NCBI GenBank assembly: GCA_035540635.1
Contig: DATLGH010000047.1
Coordinates: forward strand, 1 to 43,557
Reading direction: 5' to 3'
Source: Egibacteraceae bacterium
GTDB taxonomy: Bacteria; Actinomycetota; Nitriliruptoria; Euzebyales; Egibacteraceae
Length of the DNA: 43,557 bases
Shown: piece after piece, positions 14,847-20,566 of the stretch
Layout: every line of letters starts with the position of its first letter
How positions within the stretch are numbered: the first letter of the stretch is position 1
Notes under the pieces: model-generated
The model's input: only the letters and a program-made list of their open reading frames with translations
The model's database searches: none
Told to the model about the DNA's origin: nothing
Translations under genes and position numbers: made by a program

Positions 14847-14852
14847 GGCACC

Positions 14853-14968
14853 GGCGCTTTCGGGGCAGGGTGCAATCCCCGACCGGCGGTAGAGCCCGCG
14901 AGCCCCCCGGGGCAGATCCGGTGTGATTCCGGAGCCGACGGTGACAGTCCGGATGGAAGAAGGCGCGC
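14853..14968 (+). promoter_or_regulatory. FMN riboswitch (RFN element)
   Basis: The conserved RFN core is recognisable. GGCGC then TTTCGGGGCAGGGTGCAAT opens the element, CCCCGACCGGCGGT follows (14877-14890), then the variable arm, then CCGGTGTGATTCCGG-AGCCGACGGTGACAGTCCGGATGGAAGAAGGCGC closes it. The outer P1 helix pairs GCGC near 14854 with GCGC near 14963. It binds FMN and precedes a complete riboflavin operon, so it should lower expression when FMN is plentiful. There is no T-run terminator downstream; see the separate sequestering-helix entry for the probable mechanism. Confidence 0.95.
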
Positions 14969-19299: not shown

Positions 19300-19755
19300 G
19301 TGTCGGACCCGAGGAGCCAGCGCGCGGACCAGCCCACGGAGCAGGAGCTGCAGGCGTATCTCGAGCAGCTGCGCGCGGCGGACGCCGCCGAGATCGTGGC
19401 GCAGGCCTACACCATGCTGGGCACCGGGGCGGAGGTGAAGCTCGGGCGCTCCGACGCCCGCGTGCTCATCGACGCCATGGGGGCGCTGGCGGAGTCGGCG
19501 GCGGGCGCCCTCGACGGCGACCTCGTGGAACGCATGCGCAACGGTGTCGTCCAGCTGCAGACGGCGCAGGTGCAGGCGGAGCGCCGGTCGGGCGCGGGCG
19601 CCCCCGCAGGTGGCGGTGCCGCGACGCCGCCCCCGGCGGCGGCGGGTGCGCCGGCCCAGGGACCGCAGCCCCAGGGACCGCAGCCGCAGGGGAAGGAGCC
19701 GGGCGGGCAGTCGATGACCGAGCGGCTCTGGATCCCCGGGCGGGAGCCCCGCTGA
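19300..19755 (+). CDS. DUF1844-like protein with Gly-Pro-Gln-rich tail
   Basis: 151 residues, function unknown. Residues ~15-90 (EAEIVAQAYTMLG-type helix, then LGRSDARVLIDAMGALAESAAG and VERMRNGVVQLQTAQVQ) resemble the small DUF1844 helical proteins that lie upstream of infC-rpmI-rplT in many actinobacteria; the location just before rpmI supports this. The second half is low complexity (Ala/Gly/Pro/Gln), with a tandem GPQPQ repeat near 19665-19692, and ends MTERLWIPGREPR, a conserved-looking C-terminal tryptophan segment. GTG start with GAAAGGA seven bases upstream. No signal peptide or membrane segment. Confidence 0.65.
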   Translation: MSDPRSQRADQPTEQELQAYLEQLRAADAAEIVAQAYTMLGTGAEVKLGRSDARVLIDAMGALAESAAGALDGDLVERMRNGVVQLQTAQVQAERRSGAGAPAGGGAATPPPAAAGAPAQGPQPQGPQPQGKEPGGQSMTERLWIPGREPR

Positions 19756-19762
19756 ACGCTGC

Positions 19763-19768
19763 TACACT
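19763..19768 (+). promoter_or_regulatory. -10 element for rpmI-rplT
   Basis: TACACT begins 7 nt after the preceding stop codon, with no clear -35. It would start an unusually long leader of about 210 nt before rpmI. Confidence 0.4.
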
Positions 19769-19987
19769 CGCGGGCACGTGCGAAGTGGAAGCGGCCAGGC
19801 TTTCCACCCGGCGGGCCTCGACGGACGGCGCTGAACCCGGCTGGTGCCGAGTTCACCGGAGCTGACGAGGACCCAGACCGGGTACGACAGGCGGGCAGGT
19901 CGCGCTGCCCCCGTTCCCGGCCGCTGCCCTTGGCGCAGCGGCCGTTCGCGTTCCGCGGACCCGACGCACGACGATCAAGGACACACG
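19769..19987 (+). promoter_or_regulatory. Structured leader of rpmI-rplT (candidate L20-type autoregulatory leader)
   Basis: About 219 nt without a credible ORF, in the place where infC normally sits. It contains GTGGAA/TTCCAC (a hairpin just after the promoter), then GGGCAG (19893-19898) pairing with CTGCCC (19905-19910), then a perfect 9-bp hairpin GGCCGCTGC (19919-19927) / GCAGCGGCC (19935-19943). GGGCAG can instead pair with a second CTGCCC at 19924-19929, which would break the 9-bp hairpin. This is the mutually exclusive layout expected of an attenuator or translational switch. L20 represses its own operon through leader RNA in E. coli and Bacillus; the same is inferred here. Confidence 0.45.
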
Positions 19988-20179
19988 ATGCCGAAGCAGA
20001 AGACGCACTCCGGTGCCAAGGACCGCTTCCGGGTGACGAAGACCGGAAAGGTCCTGCACCGGCGCATGAACCGCAACCACATCCTCGAGAAGAAGTCGAG
20101 CAGGCGCAAGCGCCGGCTCTCGCGCGACGGCCAGCTCACCGGCGGTGACGCGCAGCAGATCAAGAAGCTCCTGCGCTAG
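19988..20179 (+). CDS. rpmI: 50S ribosomal protein L35
   Basis: 63-residue basic ribosomal protein. It begins MPKQKTHSGAKDRFRVTKTGK and has the Arg/Lys-rich centre HILEKKSSRRKRRL, both typical of bL35. The ATG at 19988 has AAGGA six bases upstream. It is co-transcribed with rplT, 30 nt downstream. Confidence 0.96.
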   Translation: MPKQKTHSGAKDRFRVTKTGKVLHRRMNRNHILEKKSSRRKRRLSRDGQLTGGDAQQIKKLLR

Positions 20180-20209
20180 TCCGCCCCCACCCCTCAAGGA
20201 GCATCCGTC

Positions 20210-20566
20210 ATGGCCCGCATCAAGCGTGGGGTCCACAGCCGCAAGCAGCGCCGCACGGTGCTGAACCGTGCGAAGGGCTTCCGCGGCGCCCGCAGCCGCC
20301 GGTACCGCGTCGCCAACGAGGCGGTGATGCACGCCGACCGCTACGCCTACCGGGACCGTCGCGCCCGCAAGGGCGACTTCCGCAAGCTGTGGATCCAGCG
20401 CATCAACGCCGCCGCTCGCATGGAGGGCCTGTCCTACAGCCGGTTCATAAACGGGCTGAAGCGCGCAGAGGTCGAGGTCGATCGCAAGGTGCTCGCGGAC
20501 CTCGCCGTGCGCGACCCGGCGGCGTTCTCCGAGCTCGTCACGGTGGCGAAGAACGCCCTGGACTGA
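20210..20566 (+). CDS. rplT: 50S ribosomal protein L20
   Basis: 118 residues, a 23S rRNA-binding assembly protein. It opens [18 protein letters not shown] with [15 protein letters not shown], and contains [18 protein letters not shown] and the [11 protein letters not shown] segment, all characteristic of bL20. AAGGAG precedes the ATG. In other bacteria L20 is also the repressor of its own operon through the leader mRNA, relevant to the structured leader upstream. Confidence 0.97.

Follow-up and report, generated by a model that had tools for sequence, protein, structure and literature searches.

What controls expression of rpmI and rplT in an Egibacteraceae bacterium whose stretch ahead of these genes resembles a regulatory leader? 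We examined this question in a contig of 43,557 nucleotides (GenBank DATLGH010000047.1, positions 1 to 43,557; hereafter the window). A sequence-only reading had proposed that GGGCAG pairs with either of two CTGCCC copies, that the second pairing disrupts a perfect 9-bp hairpin, and that L20 possibly binds this leader. The letters and coordinates are correct, with GGGCAG at 19893-19898 and CTGCCC at 19905-19910 and 19924-19929, as are the 9-bp hairpin (GGCCGCTGC at 19919-19927 with GCAGCGGCC at 19935-19943) and the distance of about 45 nt to rpmI (44 nt from the hairpin end to the ATG at 19988). Of 2000 dinucleotide-shuffled versions of 19769-19987, 2.1% contained a perfect 9-bp hairpin, 6.2% contained a hexamer having two complementary copies within 46 nt, and 0.5% contained the two features jointly; the hairpin is therefore unusual, and the double hexamer alone is weak. 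The overall fold was only mildly more stable than those of shuffles (z -1.72).

The functional element is larger than the arms named in that reading and lies mostly upstream of them (Table 1). We interpret the leader as a divergent, high-GC actinobacterial L20 leader that places rpmI-rplT under the control of transcription attenuation, and assign this interpretation a probability of roughly 0.7. The elements are arranged in the order AAG, P1, P2 (an ACCCGG/CCGGGU helix), P3 and intrinsic terminator, the last being the 9-bp hairpin of the sequence-only reading. To judge from the sequence, the transcript probably starts near 19774. Hexamers resembling TACACT can be seen by eye upstream of AAG in many relatives, and a consensus scan of the window returned no -35/-10 pair.

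Table 1. Features of the rpmI-rplT leader and its genes in the window.
Feature	Position	Strand	Partner or detail	Basis
Likely -10 element TACACT	19763..19768	+		sequence; inferred
Entire L20-leader-like sensor domain	19779..19895	+		models R1 and R2
AAG, candidate L20-contact element ("AA dimer" of L20 leaders)	19783..19785	+		conservation
P1 hairpin	19787..19805	+	19787-19792 with 19799-19805, one bulged T	covariation
AGCGGCC of P1, candidate antiterminator strand	19790..19796	+	19919-19925	folding energies/probabilities
P2 5' strand ACCCGG	19806..19811	+	19878-19883	covariation
P3 5' strand GGGCCTCG	19813..19820	+	CGAGGACCC, 19866-19874	covariation
P3 3' strand CGAGGACCC	19866..19874	+		covariation, folding
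P2 3' strand CCGGGT	19878..19883	+		covariation, folding
Local hairpin GGGCAG/CTGCCC (first pairing of the sequence-only reading)	19893..19910	+		folding
Intrinsic terminator hairpin (attenuator)	19919..19943	+	weak U tract in this genome	stem -20.9 kcal/mol
rpmI (L35)	19988..20179	+	ATG at 19988	PF01632, E 1.3e-22
rplT (L20)	20210..20566	+		PF00453, E 3.7e-45

Other features of the window were also recorded. A GTG frame (19844-20179) that enters rpmI in frame, and overlaps the terminator as well as P2 and P3, could be wrongly annotated as an extended L35. The leader is preceded by a small frame (19300-19755) with no Pfam match, which we take to resemble DUF1844 proteins. An FMN riboswitch (RF00050, 111.3 bits) at 14852-14968, ahead of rib genes, is ordinary.

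DNA relatives of the region were drawn from 61 genomes. Many share a motif upstream of rpmI, consisting of AAG, a hairpin and CACC, which is located well upstream of the previously named arms. The regular expression that selected the first relatives required AAG and CCACC and placed no requirement on pairing, and the resulting MAFFT alignment of 18 leaders chosen by sequence pattern (A1) served as an unfitted check. P1 pairing reached 100% of cells in A1, where five of its six pairs showed double-sided changes; P2 was paired in 81% of cells, a value partly due to a gap that MAFFT misplaces there. Sliding the structure along A1 lowered the proportion of paired cells from 90% to 66% or less. Paired cells reached 92.0%, 94.4% and 96.2% in the fitted alignments A2, A3 and A4, and in A2 and A3 both partners of each of the six P1 pairs changed; the pair counts of A2 to A4 lean towards the structure, since the models R1 and R2 carry it. 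The covariation score and paired cells of P1, P2 and P3 together exceeded those of all 500 shuffles in each of the four alignments. AAG was present in 29/30, 42/43 and 45/45 aligned rows, and the CC/GG of P2 was near-invariant as well. As AAG and three P2 pairs hardly vary, they represent conservation and not covariation. Two secondary A3 hits (L079:2994 and L092:985) are included in the A3 pair counts and in the row counts for AAG and CC/GG, and were excluded from the terminator count below. Covariation in related genomes, which the sequence-only reading had put forward as a check of its helices, was found for P1 to P3, mostly upstream of the arms that it named. Two members of the family (L006 and L011, in G006 and G017) appear to have lost the conserved motif from their rpmI leaders.

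We searched for the sensor domain with two models, R1 from 18 leaders that all belong to the class of the window and R2 from 30 leaders. The window domain, itself a training row of both models, scored 55.3 bits with R1 (E 1.7e-11) and 53.6 bits with R2. R1 had matches in 21 of 66 class genomes at E 0.01 and in 23 of 396 genomes from the phylum at E 0.001. Five of its six matches outside the class are found shortly before infC. The sixth (L059, in G178) has no such gene nearby and was set aside as a chance hit, as were second R1 hits at G000:C34 (L054) and G027:C188 (L055); none of the three has a convincing infC, L35 or L20 motif, and L054 contains one chance-looking IF3-like string. R2 matched 38 of 70 infC loci from the phylum at E 0.01 or better, a count that includes the training genomes G176, G255 and G206, and had no match at this threshold at the other 32. 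With the limit relaxed to E 1, R2 gave 43 matches. For 32 of these, tblastn confirmed the sense orientation and a distance of no more than 450 nt to infC; another nine are in short stretches where tblastn could not score infC but the strand agrees with that of infC, and two are stray.

In 80 named rplT loci retrieved by L20 similarity alone, R2 identified 45 leaders at E 0.1 and 33 at E 0.01. Every one of the 45 has the sense orientation and precedes infC by 85-203 nt, and among the names are Kribbella, Aeromicrobium, Microlunatus, Lentzea, Demequina, Rarobacter and Acidimicrobiia MAGs. No R2 leader was found in the remaining named loci, such as those of Corynebacterium mucifaciens and Cellulomonas carbonis. 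A whole-genome R2 search with strict filters was positive in 48/396 genomes at E 0.01. Four genomes (G083, G282, G319 and G391) each carry two separate L20-leader-like hits, and a second regulated operon is possible there.

The Rfam L20 leader model (RF00558) had no match in window positions 19700-20250, either at its gathering cut-off of 58.7 bits, which the leader does not reach, or at E values up to 10. A reading of the leader as a new family was dropped once intermediates from across the phylum were found to match RF00558. Low-GC actinobacterial leaders identified with R2 match this model, one of them (L067) at 65.6 bits, above the cut-off, and eight others at 27.8-57.3 bits. In the RF00558 alignment of L067, the first hairpin falls on P1 and the CC/GG helix on P2. 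Across the phylum, RF00558 matched 50/396 genomes at E 0.001 and one of 396 above the cut-off. In G079, G098, G176, G255, G287 and G340, RF00558 and R2 both match with 5' ends exactly 2 nt apart, and R1, built from the window's class only, had already matched the same place in G176 and G255. Because these intermediates match in the same register, we read the window leader as an L20-leader homologue despite its failure to reach the Rfam threshold; on sequence grounds, it is a divergent branch of the L20 leader. The earlier remark that it does not clearly match the Firmicute L20 leader is correct for the Rfam score, but the intermediates reveal a diverged relative.

Further features of RF00558 can be recognized, namely a position before infC-rpmI-rplT or rpmI-rplT, a P1 followed by a CC/GG P2 that encloses a helix, a terminator after the sensor (with a weak U tract in the window), and two consecutive G-C pairs with an AA dimer. 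The Bacillus subtilis infC leader shares the same operon, the order AAG, P1, short CC/GG P2 with inner helix and terminator, and the register seen in the six actinobacterial genomes. The window leader differs from it and from RF00558 in being GC-rich, in its larger P2/P3 insert, in the absence of infC after the leader and in a score below the reach of Rfam. That the leader is a constitutive terminator behind a structured 5' end that binds no ligand is very unlikely, given a covarying sensor domain that is kept across the phylum and its homology to the leader of B. subtilis, for which the accessible text reports a response to L20 (PMC6097659).

Genomes with a broken-up operon bear on which protein the RNA might sense. 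In the genome of the window, infC is on another contig (G000:C76:8976-9185, L032), apart from rpmI-rplT; this displaced infC adjoins a frame that by eye resembles EF-Tu. The leader precedes rpmI with infC elsewhere in 14 genomes (G000, G001, G002, G005, G014, G015, G020, G021, G023-G027 and G029), and R2 found no credible leader at their separate infC genes. Two R2 hits near infC were rejected, one (L139) inside a 392-aa frame and treated as chance, the other (L156) weak, partial and on the strand opposite to infC. In G003, G007 and G016, where the operon is intact, the leader is upstream of infC. The leader stays at rpmI-rplT in the split genomes, and the element therefore follows these two genes. 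On this sequence evidence, the split genomes, behind which there may be few events, favour L20 over IF3 as the ligand and leave L35 possible. An RNA that senses IF3 or some other translation signal, with L20 not the ligand, would suit the finding that infC is the gene next behind the leader in most of the phylum, but is unlikely given the split genomes and an architecture and register in common with RF00558. Two genomes, G003 (L138 and L156) and G006 (L145 and L157), have two infC matches each; the leader-bearing operon of G003 contains one of its two and the other lies elsewhere, which suggests infC replacement.

The assembly of the window yielded no 23S rRNA of its own, and the comparison with the ribosomal site used E. 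coli and relatives. In E. coli 23S rRNA, GGUUAAGUGG starts at position 1016 and CUAAACC (ACC) lies downstream of it; the 23S rRNA of a relative has GGCUAAGUGG and, downstream, CUAAGCC (GCC). Presumably, GGUUAAGUGG pairs with the CUAAACC stretch and GGCUAAGUGG with the CUAAGCC stretch. The near-invariant AAG and CC/GG of the leaders agree with the mimic of the L20 site, made up of an AA dimer plus two G-C pairs, that the available part of Eckert and Meyer (2020; PMC7247131) presents.

Of 67 distinct leaders, 43 have a terminator downstream of the sensor, including one doubtful case that overlaps the sensor (L033), compared with 1.6% of shuffled downstream regions. None was called in the other 24, and the window terminator, with its poor U tract, was not called by the consensus scan. 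The uncalled leaders and the weak tract would be in keeping with L20 binding the leader but repressing rpmI translation in the manner of E. coli, the hairpin then being of minor importance; we consider this improbable, given clear terminators at this place in relatives and a ribosome-binding region that is outside the conserved domain.

Folding of the window leader gave closely matched energies for the terminator (-99.9 kcal/mol) and for an antiterminator formed with the P1 arm (-99.6 kcal/mol). In RNAs ending at 19924-19940, the AGCGGCC arm pairs with a probability of 0.83-0.98 and P1 with a probability of about 0, while in RNA ending at 19944 the terminator has a probability of 0.96; at full length, the terminator is the thermodynamically preferred fold even when no protein is present. 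The pairing of GGGCAG with the second CTGCCC (-86.7 kcal/mol) is about 13 kcal/mol above the best fold and has a probability of 0.0 at every transcript length tested. Its pairing with the first copy does form a stable local hairpin (probability 0.99-1.0 once fully transcribed) without the proposed role in a switch, and this sequence is not retained in a same-genus leader. In 13 class leaders, the segment that separates P2 from the terminator matched the terminator arm no better than shuffles did. The complementarity on which a choice between the two CTGCCC copies was based exists, but such a choice is now extremely improbable. What survives of that reading is a structured autoregulatory leader with L20 as its likely ligand and two exclusive folds, formed by other arms.

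The P1 antiterminator had a probability above 0.5 in 10 of 13 class leaders (the order-level group of families f1-f3), compared with 74 of 260 shuffled-arm controls. Outside this group it was found in only 10 of 30 leaders, and lineage f19 lacks it. Terminator arms fit their own P1 better than the arms of other lineages do (permutation p 0.015, 19 groups), and the best-duplex test gave a mean z of only -0.55 over 42 leaders. In these three tests, the leader L043, whose terminator has a weak tail, was added by hand and L033 was omitted; the best-duplex test also left out L126. From the lineage counts and duplex tests, the predicted antiterminator has good support in the group of the window and in some lineages of low GC, and is not universal. 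The P2 3' strand CCGGGTACG could by eye also pair with CGTTCCCGG ahead of the terminator, which we do not claim as an antiterminator.

For the window leader, we infer from its sequence both L20 binding and termination. In the nascent RNA, AGCGGCC of P1 would first pair with the terminator's 5' arm, forming an antiterminator that leaves the operon on. Surplus L20 would bind AAG-P1-P2, a likeness of its 23S site, and would keep P1 closed, so that the terminator arm is freed, the terminator forms and transcription ends before rpmI. If the hairpin that mimics rRNA is also the antiterminator strand, L20 binding and antitermination would compete for the same nucleotides.

Related systems have been described elsewhere. 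According to the accessible portion of PMC7247131, the deltaproteobacterial L20 leader has two consecutive G-C pairs, an AA dimer and proposed 23S mimicry in common with ours, and is built on another scaffold. The E. coli L20 operator in the infC-rpmI region has the same proposed ligand and rRNA mimicry, but the available text describes a long-range pseudoknot with a hairpin and translational repression (PMC10931766). As far as its accessible text goes, PMC6097659 treats the L20 RNA as narrowly distributed in Firmicutes, with L20 stabilizing a terminator, while the part available of PMC3766115 places L20 motifs in Firmicutes and Thermotogales and lists Corynebacteriaceae and Mycobacteriaceae among the groups surveyed. 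Our literature search, which covered few subscription papers, found no publication on this leader in actinobacteria.

We lean towards the broader view, with less confidence than for the window itself, that these leaders form a previously undescribed branch of the L20 leader spanning the actinobacterial phylum, whose rRNA-mimicking hairpin doubles as the antiterminator strand and which travels with rpmI-rplT and not with infC. A diverged L20 leader across Actinomycetota would rank among the more widespread ribosomal leaders. It could also explain long infC leaders such as that of Mycobacterium tuberculosis, for which the accessible data of PMC3207917 give a length of 326 nt and leader/CDS read ratios of 2.6 and 4.9 that would fit attenuation. 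The window leader itself offers a concrete, testable bistable switch.
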